Assembly (NCBI RefSeq): GCF_003852705.1
Contig: NZ_REFA01000020.1
Location: 1 to 41,483 of the forward strand
Source of the DNA: Amniculibacterium aquaticum
GTDB lineage: Bacteria > Bacteroidota > Bacteroidia > Flavobacteriales > Weeksellaceae
Length of the DNA stretch: 41,483 nt
Reading direction: 5' to 3'
The notes under the pieces were generated by a model that was not told the DNA's origin, ran no database searches, and worked only from the letters and a program-made list of their open reading frames with translations. Position numbers and translations under genes: made by a program. Below, piece by piece: positions 7,480-26,992 of the stretch (positions are counted from its first letter, which is position 1; each line of letters begins with the position of its first letter).

Positions 7480-10400
7480 TTACATGCACTCCATTTTGAA
7501 GGACATGCTTTCGATTACTTTCAGTGTTGCTTCTACAGTATCCATGGAGGTCAGACACGGCACACCGTTTTCAACCGAAGCTCTACGGATTTGGAAACCG
7601 TCTCTCTCAGCTTGTTTTCCTTTCGTAGTCGTGTTTACCACATATTGTACTTTACCTTTTTGGATTAAATCGATGAGGCTTAGGTCTTCTTCATTGATCT
7701 TGTATCCAATTTTTGTAGGGATACCTTTTTCGGTGAAATAGTTAGCGGTACCTTCAGTAGCCCAAATTCTGAAACCAATTTCATGGAATCTCTTGGCCAA
7801 AACTGAAGCTTCTTCTTTGTGTTTATCGGCTACGGTAAACAAGATGGCACCGTGAAGTGGCATTTTTCTACCTGCACCAATCATCCCTTTGTACAACGCT
7901 TTTTCTAGAGTCGAGTCTTTACCCATTACCTCTCCTGTCGATTTCATTTCCGGGCCTAAAGTGATGTCCACTTTTGTAAGTTTGGAGAAAGAGAAAACAG
8001 GAACTTTTACAAAAACACCTTCTTTGTTTGGAGCTAAACCATTTTTGTAGCCCAAGTCGGTTAGTTTTGCTCCCAAAATGGCTTTTGTTGCCAAGTTTGC
8101 CATTGGGATTTCCGTAATTTTTGAAAGGAAAGGTACCGTTCTAGACGCTCTAGGATTCACTTCGATTACATAAACCTGACCTTCAAAAAGTACATATTGT
8201 ATGTTCATCAATCCAACGATATTCAATCCTTTTGCTAATTTTTGGGTATAATCGACTAAGGTTTCAATTTCGCTTGGACTGATGTGTTGAGGAGGATAAA
8301 CCGCGATTGAGTCTCCGGAATGTACTCCTGCTCTTTCTATATGCTCCATGATACCCGGGATAATCACCGTTTCGCCATCACAAATGGCATCCACTTCTAC
8401 TTCTTTCCCCACCATGTATTTGTCAATCAACACAGGATGCTCTGGACTTGCATCTACAGCATTTTCCATGTAATGTACCAGTTCGGCTTCGCTGTACACG
8501 ATTTCCATAGCACGACCGCCCAATACATAAGAAGGTCTCACCAAAACAGGATAACCGATTTCTGCAGCGATTGGTGTGGCTTCTTCTTTGGAGAAACATG
8601 TTTTTCCAAGCGGCTGAGGAATGTCCAATTCTTGAAGTGCTTTTTCAAATTTCTCACGGTTCTCGGCTCTGTCTAGATCTTCCAAAGAAGTTCCTAAGAT
8701 TTTCACTCCATGAGCTTCTAATTTATCGGCAAGGTTGATGGCGGTTTGACCTCCAAACTGAACGATAACACCTTTTGGTTTTTCCAGCTCGATGATGTTC
8801 ATTACATCTTCTTCAGTAAGCGGTTCGAAGTAAAGTTTATCCGAAATCGAGAAGTCTGTAGATACGGTTTCTGGGTTGTTGTTGATGATGATGGCTTCGT
8901 ACCCCATTTGTTTGATGGCCCAAACCGAGTGTACCGTTGCATAATCAAACTCTACCCCTTGTCCGATACGGATAGGTCCTGAACCTAGAACTACAATTTT
9001 TTCTTTTTCAGAAACAATGCTTTCGTTTTCGTCTTCGTAAGTTCCGTAGAAATACGGAGTTTCCGACTCGAATTCGGCTGCGCATGTGTCCACCATTTTA
9101 TAGACCGGCATTACTTTGTTTTCTTTTCTGAAATCGAAAACTTCTCTGGCAGATATTTCCCAAAGATGAGCAATGTTAACATCTGAGAAACCTAACTTTT
9201 TAGCTTGAAGAAGGACTTCAGCATTCAATTTATTGTTCTTGATGGTGGTTTCAAAGTCCACCAATTTTTTCAATTTCCAGATGAAGAATTTATCAATTTG
9301 GCTCCATTCTACAATTTGTTCCCAATCATAGCCTCTTCTAAGAGCTTCACCAATGATGAACAATCTTTCGTCGTCACAAACTTTTATTCTTCTTTCGATA
9401 TCAGCATCGGTTAGTGCTAAAGCTGCTTTAGATTTTAATCCCAAATGCTGTATGCCTACTTCTAAGGAACGAACGGCTTTCATCAAGGATTCTTCAAAGT
9501 TTCTACCGATGGCCATTACCTCTCCTGTTGCTTTCATTTGGGTTGAAAGTCGTCGGTCTGCCGTTTCGAATTTATCAAATGGGAATCTTGGAATTTTAGC
9601 AACCACATAGTCCAAAGCCGGTTCGAAACAAGCGTAAGTTCTACCGGTAACCGGGTTCATCATTTCGTCTAAGGTAAGACCAACAGCGATTTTTGCGGCT
9701 AATTTAGCAATTGGATATCCTGTTGCCTTACTTGCCAAAGCCGATGAACGGGAAACTCTTGGGTTCACCTCGATCACATAATAATTGAACGAGTGCGGAT
9801 CTAAAGCCAGCTGAACATTACAGCCACCTTCAATTCCTAAAGCACGGATTATTTTTAGAGATGCATTTCTCAGCATTTGATACTCTCTATCCGAAAGCGT
9901 TTGCGATGGCGCCACCACGATAGAATCTCCGGTGTGTACCCCAACGGCATCTACATTTTCCATGTTACAAACCACAATGGCGTTGTCGTTGGCATCACGC
10001 ATTACTTCGTATTCTATTTCTTTGTAACCTGCAATGGATTTCTCAATCAGACATTGAGTTACAGGACTGTATTTCAGTCCATTAGCTGCGATTTCTTTAA
10101 GTTCGGCTTCGGTGCTGGCAATACCACCACCAGTACCTCCCATGGTAAAAGCAGGTCTAACGATTACCGGATAACCGATGTTGTTTGCAAATTCTAAGGC
10201 ACCTTCAACGGTATTTACGATGTCGCTTTCAGGAACAGGTTCTCCCAAATCGTTCATCAAAGTACGGAAAAGATCTCTGTCTTCGGCTTGGTTAATGGCT
10301 GAAAGCTTGGTACCCAAAACTTCTACTCCACATTCTTCTAAGATGCCCGAATTCTGCAATTCAACCGCCATGTTCAGGCCGGTTTGTCCTCCCAAAGTAG

Positions 10401-10659
10401 GCAACAAAGCATCGGGTCTTTCTTTGCGAATGATGTGACTTACGAAAGGAAGTGAGATGGGTTCAATATATACTTTATCCGCAATTTCGACATCCGTCAT
10501 GATGGTTGCCGGATTGGAGTTGATAAGGATTACTCTGTAACCCTCTTCTTTAAGAGCCAAACAAGCTTGTGTCCCTGCGTAATCGAACTCTGCTGCTTGA
10601 CCAATAATAATGGGGCCACTACCTATAACTAAAATGGTTTTTATATCGTTTCTTTTCAT
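7480..10659 (-). CDS. carB: Carbamoyl-phosphate synthase, large subunit
   Basis: Makes carbamoyl phosphate from bicarbonate, ammonia (from CarA) and two ATP, for pyrimidine and arginine synthesis. The protein shows the usual internal duplication: each half begins with a GSGPI(I/R)IGQ..EFDYA motif and holds an ATP-grasp domain with VIEVNPR(V/A)SR. The C-terminal MGS-like allosteric domain ([19 protein letters not shown]) is complete. The 1059-residue length is normal. I use ATG 10659; a TTG four codons upstream is unlikely. It is the last gene of pyrB-carA-carB, 51 bases after carA. Placing car next to pyrB suggests control by pyrimidines. Confidence 0.98.
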
Positions 10660-10710
10660 AATTTTATACAATATTGATGTTTAACAATGGTGAAGATTAG
10701 TCCTAAATAA

Positions 10711-11793
10711 TTAGGCGTTTGCACTGTTATTTTGTTCCATTAATTCAATAAATTCATCAAACAAATAGTTGGCATCTTCAGGGCCTGGGCTGGCTTCCGG
10801 ATGGTATTGTACGGAGAAACAAGGATGGATTTTATGTTTGATACCTTCGTTGGTTCTGTCGTTCAGAGCGATGTGGGTCTCAACAAGATCCGTGTTTTTC
10901 AACGAGTCTTGATCTACAGCGTAACTGTGATTTTGAGAAGTTAAAGCCACTTTACCGGTGTTGACATCCAAAACCGGATGGTTGCCTCCTCGGTGTCCGA
11001 ATTTTAGTTTGTAGGTTTTTGCACCACAAGCCAAAGCAATCAATTGGTGGCCAAGACAGATTCCGAAAATAGGCACTTTCCCTAGAACACCTCGGATCAT
11101 TTCGTGAGCATGAGGGACATCTTGTGGGTCACCAGGACCGTTGGAAAGCATGATTCCGTCTGGGTTCATCATTAATATTTCTTCGGCTGTTGTATTGTGA
11201 GAAACCACCACGATGTCGCAATTTCTTTGAGAAAGTTCTCTGATGATTCCGAGTTTTGATCCAAAATCTACCAAAACGACTTTATGACCTCTTCCCGGAC
11301 ATGCGTATGAAGTTTTTGTAGAAACAGAAGCCACTTGGTCGGTGGCAAAATTTGTTGCTTTCAGATCTTCGATCACTAGTTTGTCATCTTCAGAAGCATC
11401 TACAATTCTCCCTTTTACAGAGCCAAAATTTCTAATGATACGGGTAAGTTTTCGGGTATCAATTCCTGAGATTCCAGACATGTTTTTCTTTTGAAAGAAT
11501 TCGTCCAGAGACATTTGGCTACGGAAATTGGATGGCAAGTCGCAAAGTTCTTTTACGATAAGTCCTTTAATTGCTGGTTCCATACATTCGTAATCGTCTC
11601 TATTGATGCCGTAATTTCCGATCAAAGGATAGGTCATGCAAACGATTTGTCCACAATAAGAAGGATCGGAAATGAGTTCCTGATATCCGGTCATCCCGGT
11701 ATTGAAAACCACTTCACCTTCTGTTTGTACATGGGCACCGAAACCTTCACCGTGGAAAACTTCGCCTGTTTCTAATATGAGTTTCTTTTTCAT
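10711..11793 (-). CDS. carA: Carbamoyl-phosphate synthase, small (glutaminase) subunit
   Basis: Hydrolyses glutamine and channels ammonia to CarB. The N-terminal CPSase domain begins KLILETGEVFHGEGFG; the class I glutamine amidotransferase domain has the nucleophile Cys in GICLGHQLIAL and the His-Glu pair in VQYHPEASPGP. The 360-residue length is normal. It lies between pyrB (67-base gap) and carB (51-base gap) on the same strand, with no promoter or terminator visible in either gap, so one transcript is likely. Confidence 0.98.
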   Translation of the reverse strand: MKKKLILETGEVFHGEGFGAHVQTEGEVVFNTGMTGYQELISDPSYCGQIVCMTYPLIGNYGINRDDYECMEPAIKGLIVKELCDLPSNFRSQMSLDEFFQKKNMSGISGIDTRKLTRIIRNFGSVKGRIVDASEDDKLVIEDLKATNFATDQVASVSTKTSYACPGRGHKVVLVDFGSKLGIIRELSQRNCDIVVVSHNTTAEEILMMNPDGIMLSNGPGDPQDVPHAHEMIRGVLGKVPIFGICLGHQLIALACGAKTYKLKFGHRGGNHPVLDVNTGKVALTSQNHSYAVDQDSLKNTDLVETHIALNDRTNEGIKHKIHPCFSVQYHPEASPGPEDANYLFDEFIELMEQNNSANA

Positions 11794-11860: not shown

Positions 11861-12760
11861 TTAATACTGGTTTTCAAATTCAAAACCTTTTTCTTCTAAA
11901 GCTTTTTTTAGAATGGCCATTCTCGCATACACTCCATTTTCCATTTGTTTGAAAATTCTGGATCTTGAGCATTCTACCAATTCTGTATCAATTTCTACTC
12001 CTCTGTTGATGGGTGCAGGATGCATGATGATGGCATTGGATTTCATTTTTTGTTCTCGTTCTTTGGTTAAGCCGTATTTTCTGTGATATTCTTCTTTACT
12101 GTAAGACATCTGACTGTCGTGTCTTTCGTGTTGTATTCTTAGAAGCATCACCACATCGACTTCTTTGATTAATTCATCCAAAGGTAAAAAAGTACCGTTG
12201 ATGATTGCGCCTTCGTCAAACCACTGTTCAGGACCGGAAAAATAGACTTTAGCTCCTAATTTTCTCAGTGCTTCAGCATCGGAATTGGCTACTCTGCTGT
12301 GTTTTACATCACCGACAATGGCAATTTTCAATCCATCAAATTTACCAAATTCTTGATAAATAGTTAGCAAGTCCAACATGCATTGGCTTGGGTGGTTTCC
12401 TGTTCCATCGCCTCCATTTATGATTGCAGCTTTTACCGATTGTAAGTCTTTATAATATTCATTTTGTTTGTGACGGATCACCATAGCATGAACGCCAATG
12501 CTTTCTAAAGTTTTTACCGTATCGTATAGGGTTTCGCCTTTATTTACAGAACTGTGTTGCACATCGAAAGGTACCACTTCTAGTCCCAATTTTCTTTCGG
12601 CTACATCAAAGCTGGACTTGGTTCGGGTACTGTCTTCAAAAAACAAGTTGGCAGCAAAAACTTGACCTTTAACTTTGGCCGTTTTACCATCAGAAAATGA
12701 GATGGCATCGTTAAGGATATTTAGCAATTGTTCTCTGTTGTAGTCTGTTATTGTAATCAT
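11861..12760 (-). CDS. pyrB: Aspartate carbamoyltransferase, catalytic subunit
   Basis: Joins carbamoyl phosphate and aspartate to give carbamoyl aspartate, the committed step of UMP synthesis. The carbamoyl phosphate site is [33 protein letters not shown] and [11 protein letters not shown] are further family signatures. The 299-residue length is that of a normal catalytic chain. No pyrI regulatory chain adjoins. It is the first gene of pyrB-carA-carB and is preceded by a leader ORF plus terminator hairpin that probably attenuates the whole operon. Confidence 0.97.
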
Positions 12761-12770
12761 AGCTCAAAAT

Positions 12771-12800
12771 AAAAAAAAACGAAGCCGCAATGACTTCGTT
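12771..12800 (-). terminator. Attenuator hairpin in the pyrB leader
   Basis: Read on the minus strand, AACGAAG (12800-12794) and CTTCGTT (12784-12778) form a 7-bp stem with a 9-base loop. T9 follows (12779-12771), ending 10 bases before the pyrB ATG. A terminator inside the 5' leader of the gene it precedes marks attenuation. The leader ORF stop codon overlaps the first bases of the stem, and a U-rich stretch (TATTTTATTT) directly precedes it. Confidence 0.75.
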
Positions 12801-12879
12801 AAATAAAATAAATATCGTTATGGTCGGAAAATCCGCCTATTAAATGCTCAAGTGGAAAAGTGTTTTTCAATGTATTCAT
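12799..12879 (-). CDS. Putative pyrB operon leader peptide (26 codons)
   Basis: An ATG at 12879, 6 bases after the -7 box, opens a 26-codon frame beginning MNTLKNTFPLEHL and ending HNDIYFI, with TAA at 12801-12799. The stop lies on the first two bases of the terminator stem. A ribosome that follows RNA polymerase closely would prevent the hairpin from forming. The final codons are encoded by a U-rich run that could make polymerase pause when UTP is low, as in E. coli pyrBI. The ATG is at or within a few bases of the expected transcription start, so translation may be leaderless. The frame is too short for coding statistics; function is inferred from architecture. Confidence 0.55.
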   Translation of the reverse strand: MNTLKNTFPLEHLIGGFSDHNDIYFI

Positions 12880-12885
12880 TGGGTG

Positions 12886-12893
12886 CAAAGATA
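12886..12893 (-). promoter_or_regulatory. -7 box of the pyrB-carA-carB operon
   Basis: On the minus strand TATCTTTG, a full TAnnTTTG match, about 125 bases before the pyrB ATG. The start of transcription should fall near 12880, so the transcript contains the whole leader ORF and hairpin. The -33 region is weak (TTTCA about 18 bases upstream). Confidence 0.65.
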
Positions 12894-12954
12894 CAAATTA
12901 TTTTTAAAATTGAAAGCAGTGCGCTTTATTTTATCATTTATGATTTCTTTCATA

Positions 12955-12984
12955 TTGAATTAACGCTAAATTAATATATATTTG
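12955..12984 (+). promoter_or_regulatory. Promoter of the InsA-like regulator gene
   Basis: TTG at 12955-12957, a 19-base spacer and TATATTTG at 12977-12984 match the Bacteroidota promoter; ATG 13004 follows 19 bases later. It is divergent from the pyrB promoter. Its presence argues that the downstream gene is a resident gene and not a transposon scrap. Confidence 0.7.
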
Positions 12985-13003
12985 CTAAATAAATATACTT
13001 AAT

Positions 13004-13417
13004 ATGATAAAATGCCCTAAATGCTCACAGTCAAATGTTGTTAAAAGTGGTATAATAAAGGACAAACAAAGGTTTCTGTGCAAAGACTGTACCTATTACT
13101 TTACCGTAGATAAAATGGGAAAACAGATAGATGATTACTATGTTATCAAGGCTTTGCAACTGTATTTGGAAGGATTAAGCTATAGAGAAATTGAGAGGAT
13201 TATCGGTGTCTCCCATGTTTCCATTTCATCTTGGGTGAAGAAATACAATCTTAAAAGACCTGAAATAACGAACAGCAAATCCAATTATAAAATACTGAAA
13301 AAAAGTGAATTAATAGAATATTTGCAGCAAGAAAACCAAATGAAAGGCGCAGGTTTCATCATCACAGAATTTGCGGATAAATTCATGATGATCAAATGGG
13401 AACGATTCAAAAAATAA
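13004..13417 (+). CDS. InsA-like zinc-ribbon/HTH protein, probably a domesticated IS1-type DNA-binding regulator
   Basis: A 137-residue protein resembling the DNA-binding N-terminus of IS1-type transposases (InsA). A zinc ribbon uses Cys4, Cys7, Cys26 and Cys29 (CPKC and CKDC). A helix-turn-helix follows near 54-75 (GLSYREIERIIGVSHVSISSWVKKY). The last 55 residues are Lys/Glu-rich and end MIKWERFKK. There is no DDE catalytic domain, no second insB-like frame downstream and no visible terminal repeats, so it is not a working IS. It has its own good promoter and stands in the same direction before a porin/transporter/acetate-sensing gene set. I infer a transcription regulator of that set; a dead IS fragment is the alternative. 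Confidence 0.65.
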   Translation: MIKCPKCSQSNVVKSGIIKDKQRFLCKDCTYYFTVDKMGKQIDDYYVIKALQLYLEGLSYREIERIIGVSHVSISSWVKKYNLKRPEITNSKSNYKILKKSELIEYLQQENQMKGAGFIITEFADKFMMIKWERFKK

Positions 13418-26899: not shown

Positions 26900-26992
26900 T
26901 TTTATTTGGGCAGCTGTTCCCGCTTCCGTTCCCACTCTTTTATTCGTCGTACCTCCTCATAAAAGGAGTTCCACTCAAGCGGGGCTGCAAGT
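26900..26992. repeat. Repeated extragenic element, copy B
   Basis: Reverse-complemented, it reads GCAGCCCCGCTTGAGTGGAA...GTGGGAACGGAAGCGGGAACAGCTGCCCAAATAAA, matching the flanks of copy A (16831-16943). Its core differs: ACTCTTTTAT pairs with ATAAAAGGAGT with one bulge. As in copy A, the GCTGCCCAAATAAA end points at the start codon of the next gene (DUF721, minus strand). Confidence 0.6.

Follow-up and report, generated by a model that had tools for sequence, protein, structure and literature searches.

How is transcription of the pyrB-carA-carB operon controlled in Amniculibacterium aquaticum, and what do the short open frame and the terminator that precede pyrB contribute to it? Read directly, minus strand 12893–12761 of the window (the whole stretch of 41,483 nt analyzed) carries a promoter box, a leader frame, a U-rich tract, and a terminator upstream of pyrB. 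This element probably acts as a transcription attenuator of pyrB-carA-carB that works like the one of Escherichia coli pyrBI; we put the probability at roughly three in four, since the spacing of the box, the open frame, the helices, the U-rich tract, the position at pyrB, and the absence of PyrR, all properties of sequences, point in this direction. The features of the locus are the following:

12886–12893, minus strand: −7 promoter box TATCTTTG, following the TAnnTTTG consensus of the Bacteroidota primary sigma factor (read directly)
12868–12881, minus strand: 5′ hairpin CAATG-AATA-CATTG with the ATG of the leader inside it, a possible gate on leader translation (fold)
12799–12879, minus strand: leader frame of 26 codons plus TAA, with the stop at the base of the terminator (read directly)
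12822–12837, minus strand: putative pause hairpin GGCGGATTTTCCGACC within the leader frame (fold)
12801–12820, minus strand: U-rich tract from the pause hairpin to the terminator, a putative UTP-sensitive slow zone (U fraction 0.60)
12771–12800, minus strand: intrinsic terminator (attenuator) AACGAAGTC-ATTGC-GGCTTCGTT with its T run (terminator scan and fold)
11861–12760, minus strand: pyrB, aspartate carbamoyltransferase catalytic subunit, the putative first gene controlled (NF002032 and TIGR00670 over cut-off)
10711–11793, minus strand: carA, carbamoyl-phosphate synthase small subunit (TIGR01368 over cut-off)
7480–10671, minus strand: carB, carbamoyl-phosphate synthase large subunit (TIGR01369 over cut-off)

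The identities of the three genes were confirmed by Pfam and NCBIfam. Six bases (CACCCA) separate the box from the leader ATG at 12879, and the frame translates into MNTLKNTFPLEHLIGGFSDHNDIYFI and closes with TAA at 12801–12799. The terminator stem CGAAGTC/GGCTTCG (12798–12780) has seven pairs including one G-U, or nine (12800–12778) when the flanking A-U pairs are included. It is followed by T9 at 12779–12771 and, ten bases on, by the pyrB ATG at 12760. A sequence-only reading of this DNA had described the box, the ATG six bases behind it, the 26-codon frame, the TAA at the base of a 7-bp stem, the U-rich run, the T9, and the distance to pyrB, and direct reading found every one of these in place; the hairpins at 12837–12822, ahead of the U-rich tract, and at 12881–12868, including the leader ATG, are additions to that description. 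The 126-nt leader RNA folds moderately better than its shuffles (z −2.3; 5 of 200 shuffles equally good). A terminator-type hairpin is by itself not significant, three having been found by the scan in 3.4 kb against 2.3 expected. The element stands above chance because it is conserved in relatives, not because of the hairpin alone.

For the comparison within Weeksellaceae, 108 regions were used: 80 named loci of Chryseobacterium and relatives, A. aquaticum itself, and 27 regions of Weeksellaceae genomes. They cover part of the family, in which 286 of 320 genomes have a PyrB match. The same arrangement precedes pyrB in 106 of the 108 regions and, with the 12 repeats removed (compared over the last 150 bases), in 94 of 96 distinct ones; the two regions without it are a locus whose contig starts inside the element (L098) and genome G017. 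A TAnnTTTG motif lies at the place of the promoter in 106 of 108 regions, 88 of these 106 having exactly TATCTTTG, and 51 distinct leader frames occur among the 106. One region, G005, has ~100 extra bases between terminator and pyrB compared with the others. Among the 80 named loci, carA was matched in all, starting at most 1.75 kb from the pyrB start in 79, and carB in 78 (presence only). Most tests below use 31 representatives of ~25 genera, some genera being repeated; same-contig repeats, G021, and G017 were left out, and P values overstate independence because the sequences are related.

A covariance model (R2) was built from 18 of these sequences. In the genome of A. aquaticum, its best match is the pyrB element (E 1.7e-12) and the next has E 0.34 (best 150 of 3897 candidates scored); around the latter, C1:172736, the frames that were read have no link to pyrimidine synthesis, and six others range from E 2.6 to 6.6. 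With the best 62 candidates per genome scored, R2 finds the element at pyrB in 26 of 36 Weeksellaceae genomes, a scan that is not independent for the sequences that built the model; 10 of the 26 lay outside model building, with E from 8.8e-9 to 0.024. No match at pyrB occurred in the 23 order-level relatives, one of which (G036) has a weak match away from pyrB (E 0.068). Further weak matches elsewhere are seen in G013 (C15, E 0.0017, between unrelated frames), G022, G010, and G012; candidate preselection and the stricter filters in the scan of the relatives could let weak copies elsewhere escape. As for the 10 family genomes without an R2 match, G001 has a partial pyrB near a contig edge, G002 has no pyrB, G017 has pyrB with no recognizable leader, and the remaining seven are absent from the genomes that match A. 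aquaticum PyrB at E 1e-40. In this context, several family genomes of high completeness (G002, genera g10 and g21), one of them from the genus of A. aquaticum, were observed to be without a close PyrB match, which suggests that the pathway was lost more than once or that another enzyme has taken over.

The expectation that relatives share open frame and hairpin holds for most Weeksellaceae genera examined, genus g16 being an exception. Its nine genomes have a divergent pyrB and no recognizable box and ATG; by eye, a terminator precedes pyrB in seven of eight readable regions, the ninth locus being too short. In these g16 loci (L015 and L219–L226), the terminator of the seven regions is like AAACATCTT..AAGATGTTT with a T run, a clear leader start is not seen, and L015 contains, by eye, an open frame with a similar NNNIIF stretch that has no ATG.

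The leader frame itself was evaluated in a core reaching from the ATG to 16 bases before the stem in the 31 representatives. These cores contain one stop in the leader frame vs 47 and 37 in the other two frames. Open cores number 30 of 31 against 11.0 expected from dinucleotide shuffles (P 1.6e-13, a significance inflated by relatedness), and the prediction that relatives keep the frame open to the terminator is borne out in the same 30. Across the 106 regions, the stop codon ends between −16 and +1 nt of the stem start in 97, at least 10 nt into or past the stem in nine (L070 and L071 within Chryseobacterium among them), and earlier in none. For the representatives, it ends within the 16 bases leading up to the stem, the stem start itself included, in 25; the frame runs at least 15 bases into or past the stem in the other six (L099, G018, G015, G003, G016, and G024), and in G003 no stop is met upstream of pyrB. 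The requirement seems to be a frame open up to the terminator rather than a fixed stop position, and an open frame of this extent is what blocking by a ribosome would need.

The peptide appears to be a different matter. Leader peptides diverge between genera, and the 66 Chryseobacterium-type leaders comprise 17 distinct sequences and 14 distinct peptides. Their variable sites fall 3, 8, and 7 on the three codon positions, and 10 of the 11 sense codons that vary encode different residues, so that silent changes are not in excess. The leader frame seems to be under selection and the peptide much less so.

The helices within the frame were counted in the 18 of 31 sequences that could be aligned, after realignment and with the structure set by hand (13 were dropped). 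Compensatory change in the stem, an earlier suggestion, is found herein insofar as both helices keep pairing throughout the 18 sequences. The terminator helix has 100% of cells paired, with two of nine pairs changed on both sides and four of nine invariant, and the pause helix 83%; counted jointly, their covariation score and percentage paired were reached by 0 of 500 shuffles. Sliding the partners by one to three columns lowers pairing from 95% to 27%–57%. A free RNAalifold consensus of all 31 sequences gave no pairs, which we attribute to a misalignment by one base of the Chryseobacterium-type stem. A sequence-only model (R1), built after this null result, was dropped.

In the folds of most representatives, by reading, a small hairpin precedes the U-rich tract. 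Its stem varies—GGC-GCC in many, GGU-ACC, CGGUU-AACCG, or GAGGAA-UUCCUC in others—and its exact position moves by several bases from genus to genus, the copy of A. aquaticum being shifted and carrying one bulge. The U-rich tract that follows, part of the original description, is retained in relatives: the 20 bases before the stem have a mean U fraction of 0.526, against 0.286 for the remainder of the leader, and are the richer part in 30 of 31 representatives (Wilcoxon p 6.5e-7), to be read with the caveat that A+T-rich genomes commonly hold U-rich sequence.

At the other end of the element, the spacing between box and ATG is constant, considering how near the promoter this start lies—six bases in 100 regions, five in five, and seven in one of the 106. 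According to excerpts of PMC9723704, the box of Flavobacterium psychrophilum extends from −12 to −5, and just 5.5% of the mRNAs examined are leaderless; for Bacteroides thetaiotaomicron, PMC7366714 (likewise in excerpt) puts the share of 5′ UTRs below 10 nt at ~3.7%. Because of this F. psychrophilum placement (PMC9723704, excerpted), the transcript would be expected to start at ~12881, ~2 nt ahead of the leader ATG (ATG at ~+3). The leader is probably nearly leaderless, and the idea of a near-leaderless start in the sequence-only reading gains support from the constant spacing and the analogous box position.

In A. aquaticum, the start codon is paired with a probability of 0.97 when the six nucleotides after the box are included in the fold. 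For 24 less redundant representatives, the mean is 0.66 vs 0.45 in shuffles with this 6-nt 5′ end (permutation p 0.00015); if the RNA is given only 2 nt ahead of the ATG, it is 0.56 vs 0.38 (p 0.0003). Pairing of at least 0.9 is reached in 10 of 24 (2.2 expected) or, with the 2-nt end, in 7 of 24 (1.5 expected), so that most are not strong. The partner strands differ by lineage, for example, CUAAUG with CAUUAG, or CAAUG-AAUA-CAUUG in A. aquaticum. These folds suggest that the 5′ hairpin may be a gate on ribosome loading and not a fixed part of the element. If so, the ribosome would have to load before the hairpin closes, and slow transcription would delay the 3′ arm and lengthen this checkpoint.

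Taken as a pyrBI-like attenuator, the element could work as follows. RNA polymerase would start ~2 bases before the leader ATG, the first ribosome would load onto the almost leaderless RNA, and the polymerase would slow at the small hairpin and the U-rich tract. With plentiful UTP, it would leave before the ribosome arrives, the terminator would fold, and transcription would stop after ~110 nt. With low UTP, the polymerase would linger over the U residues, and the ribosome would catch up, halting at the stop codon where the stem begins; in some genera, it would instead read into the stem. Covering the 5′ arm of the terminator, it would allow transcription to go on into pyrB-carA-carB. We infer transcript start, pausing, termination, and UTP as the signal alike, low UTP on the grounds of the U-rich tract, the kind of genes under control, the missing PyrR, and the resemblance to pyrBI.

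Measurements in E. coli, as given in excerpts of the respective papers, bear on the geometry. When a stop codon 28 bp ahead of a terminator was brought to a distance of 5 bp, termination fell from ~90% to <10%, and termination in the same system was maximal with the stop codon more than 27 nt away (PMC4824070). The authors of that paper argue that a ribosome is unlikely to catch the polymerase within the first 100 bp unless pausing couples the two, as in pyrBI (PMC4824070), and suppression of the pyrL terminator needs tight coupling (PMC5021804). The leader of A. aquaticum is ~80 nt long, contains a pause-type hairpin and the U-rich tract, and has its stop codon touching the stem.

The same ribosome-coupled attenuator might instead sense translation in general—initiation rate, ribosome supply, or growth rate—with the U-rich tract being AT-rich filler. 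The frame test does point to translation and not to UTP as the signal: frame and stop position implicate the ribosome, whereas the UTP signal is something we only infer. The start codon within a 5′ hairpin in some lineages, moreover, hints at control of initiation. However, in 30 of 31 representatives U is raised specifically, with C and G low, in just the stretch that separates the pause hairpin from the terminator, and the element is found at a pyrimidine operon in a family without PyrR. We regard general translation as an unlikely signal, though one deserving attention ahead of the readings that follow.

A second alternative is an attenuator in which the nascent peptide arrests the ribosome or in which the ribosome senses arginine, aspartate, or glutamine. 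Two recurring patterns could speak for it: one resembling [ND]IYF, loosely kept at the C terminus, and [FP]L[DE] near the N terminus. In 23 peptides (first 25 residues) compared with the proteins of the window, Asp is slightly raised (6.8 vs 5.3%), but pathway amino acids show no marked excess: Arg equals its background (3.2 vs 3.2%), and Gln falls short of it (1.5 vs 3.5%). F and N are enriched most, followed by I and Y, all of them residues with A/U-rich codons. In addition, IYF varies to IFY or FYF while the peptides diverge between genera, and a competing antiterminator did not stand out in single-structure folds. For several lineages, the bases encoding the recurring L[DE] stretch overlap those paired to the start codon, which weakened a reading of FPLDD/ISLDL as conserved peptide. 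Either form of this alternative is, hence, quite improbable.

Still less credit is due to an unregulated leader, i.e., a partial terminator with an incidental short frame. It fits as long as function is known from sequence alone, but despite the divergence in sequence, frame, spacing, hairpins, and U-rich tract persist as a set.

For pyr operons, attenuation under the control of PyrR is an established arrangement. With PyrR of the order-level relative L017 as query and a threshold of E 1e-5, no PyrR was found in the 36 Weeksellaceae genomes; G017, the sole g16 genome searched, is also without it. Strong matches occur in 17 of 23 order-level genomes, in all 17 directly before pyrB. For other families, 40 regions were hand-picked among the matches listed, one per family (39 in the class and one in the order), and pyrR lies at most 149 bases before pyrB in 34 of them; some of the six regions without pyrR are suspected to encode ornithine-type rather than aspartate enzymes. 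Rfam assigns no family to the element at gathering level, and over 12700–13010 at E 5, only SNORA27, at 19.2 bits against a gathering score of 64, and the L20 leader, at 15.8 bits against 58.7, appear, both far below cut-off; a PyrR-binding motif is not among these matches, with Rfam coverage of a Bacteroidota form being an assumption. A PyrR-type or riboswitch-type RNA element, for which the established PyrR arrangement and the adjoining pyrR of other families speak, is very improbable given that the 36 family genomes have no PyrR, that Rfam yields just these two sub-cut-off matches, and that the sequence from start codon to pause hairpin lacks the conservation expected of an aptamer.

The distribution of PyrR also bears on how a pyrBI-like attenuator came about. 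Loss of pyrR and gain of the attenuator in Weeksellaceae is the parsimonious reading, and an origin independent of enterobacterial pyrL is suggested because PyrR adjoins pyrB in so many other families (34 of 40 regions). A fuller scenario is offered tentatively and is doubtful as a whole: the ancestor of Weeksellaceae may have lost PyrR and independently evolved a UTP-sensing attenuator that has no dedicated regulator, the leaderless start and, in some lineages, the 5′ hairpin serving as a second kinetic checkpoint.

Compared with known systems, the element is closest in layout to E. coli pyrBI. As the sequence-only reading had it, the order of leader frame, U-rich stretch, and terminator is the same in pyrL, whose leader frame before pyrB contains first a hairpin, then a U-rich stretch, and finally a terminator followed by T8 (NC_000913.3). 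The pyrL frame, however, has 44 codons, reads through the terminator, and ends three bases before pyrB, whereas the frames of A. aquaticum and 24 of the 30 other representatives stop at or before the stem. The leader peptides of Weeksellaceae and that of pyrL are unrelated by eye, and the operon is pyrB-carA-carB in A. aquaticum vs pyrB-pyrI in E. coli. The 5′ leader, predicted at ~2 nt in A. aquaticum, is longer in E. coli pyrBI, and to our knowledge no PyrR protein is involved in the control of the latter. As far as sequence comparison goes, the pyrBI-like interpretation is well supported: the logic is shared with pyrBI, but in a different phylum, with a predicted near-leaderless start, a stop codon at the base of the stem, and no PyrR.

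In the E. coli pyrE attenuator behind rph, translation ends just before the terminator, and a ribosome at the stop can block it. The stop of the leader adjoins the terminator here as well, but rph is a full gene, whereas Weeksellaceae have a dedicated short leader. In the Bacillus type of PyrR-dependent attenuation, pyr genes are controlled by early termination; early termination would be alike, as predicted here, and the difference lies in PyrR, absent from all Weeksellaceae genomes searched.

For the phylum, the sequence-only reading knew of nothing similar. This holds for pyrimidine leaders, as no paper on a pyrimidine leader attenuator in Flavobacteria or Bacteroidota was found in open-license literature, supplements excluded; such an absence is weak evidence because only open-license main texts are covered. 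It does not hold for leader attenuation as such, since leader-peptide attenuation has been proposed upstream of amino-acid operons of F. psychrophilum (PMC9723704, in excerpt). Those attenuators likewise place a short translated leader, here a predicted one, before a biosynthetic operon (same excerpts), but the leaders of Weeksellaceae have no marked excess of codons for an amino acid of the pathway. Small ORFs reminiscent of leader peptides were noted in B. thetaiotaomicron (excerpt of PMC7366714), and the excerpted main text of a survey of premature terminators leaves Bacteroidetes unmentioned (PMC2965389).

If the pyrBI-like reading is true, a textbook mechanism of coupled transcription and translation would have arisen twice, the second time in a phylum with different promoters and translation starts. 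Control by the timing of polymerase and ribosome would require real coupling in Bacteroidota, and the swap from PyrR to a protein-free attenuator at one operon would be a clean case of control-system replacement.

Some minor features of the window complete the description. At 26912–26990 on the minus strand, a Flavo-1 RNA (RF01705) scores 42.3 bits, barely above its gathering score of 42. A divergent gene at 13004–13417 on the plus strand adjoins the pyrB promoter and encodes a 137-aa IS1-like protein with a zinc ribbon and a helix-turn-helix. It scores under the cut-off of the IS1 transposase model, has matches upstream of pyrB in four of the 80 named loci, and is possibly a regulator derived by domestication. 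This gene is preceded at 12965–12989 by a pair of direct GCTAAA repeats with a distance of 19 bases (by eye), and similar repeats are present in several Weeksellaceae regions, again by eye.
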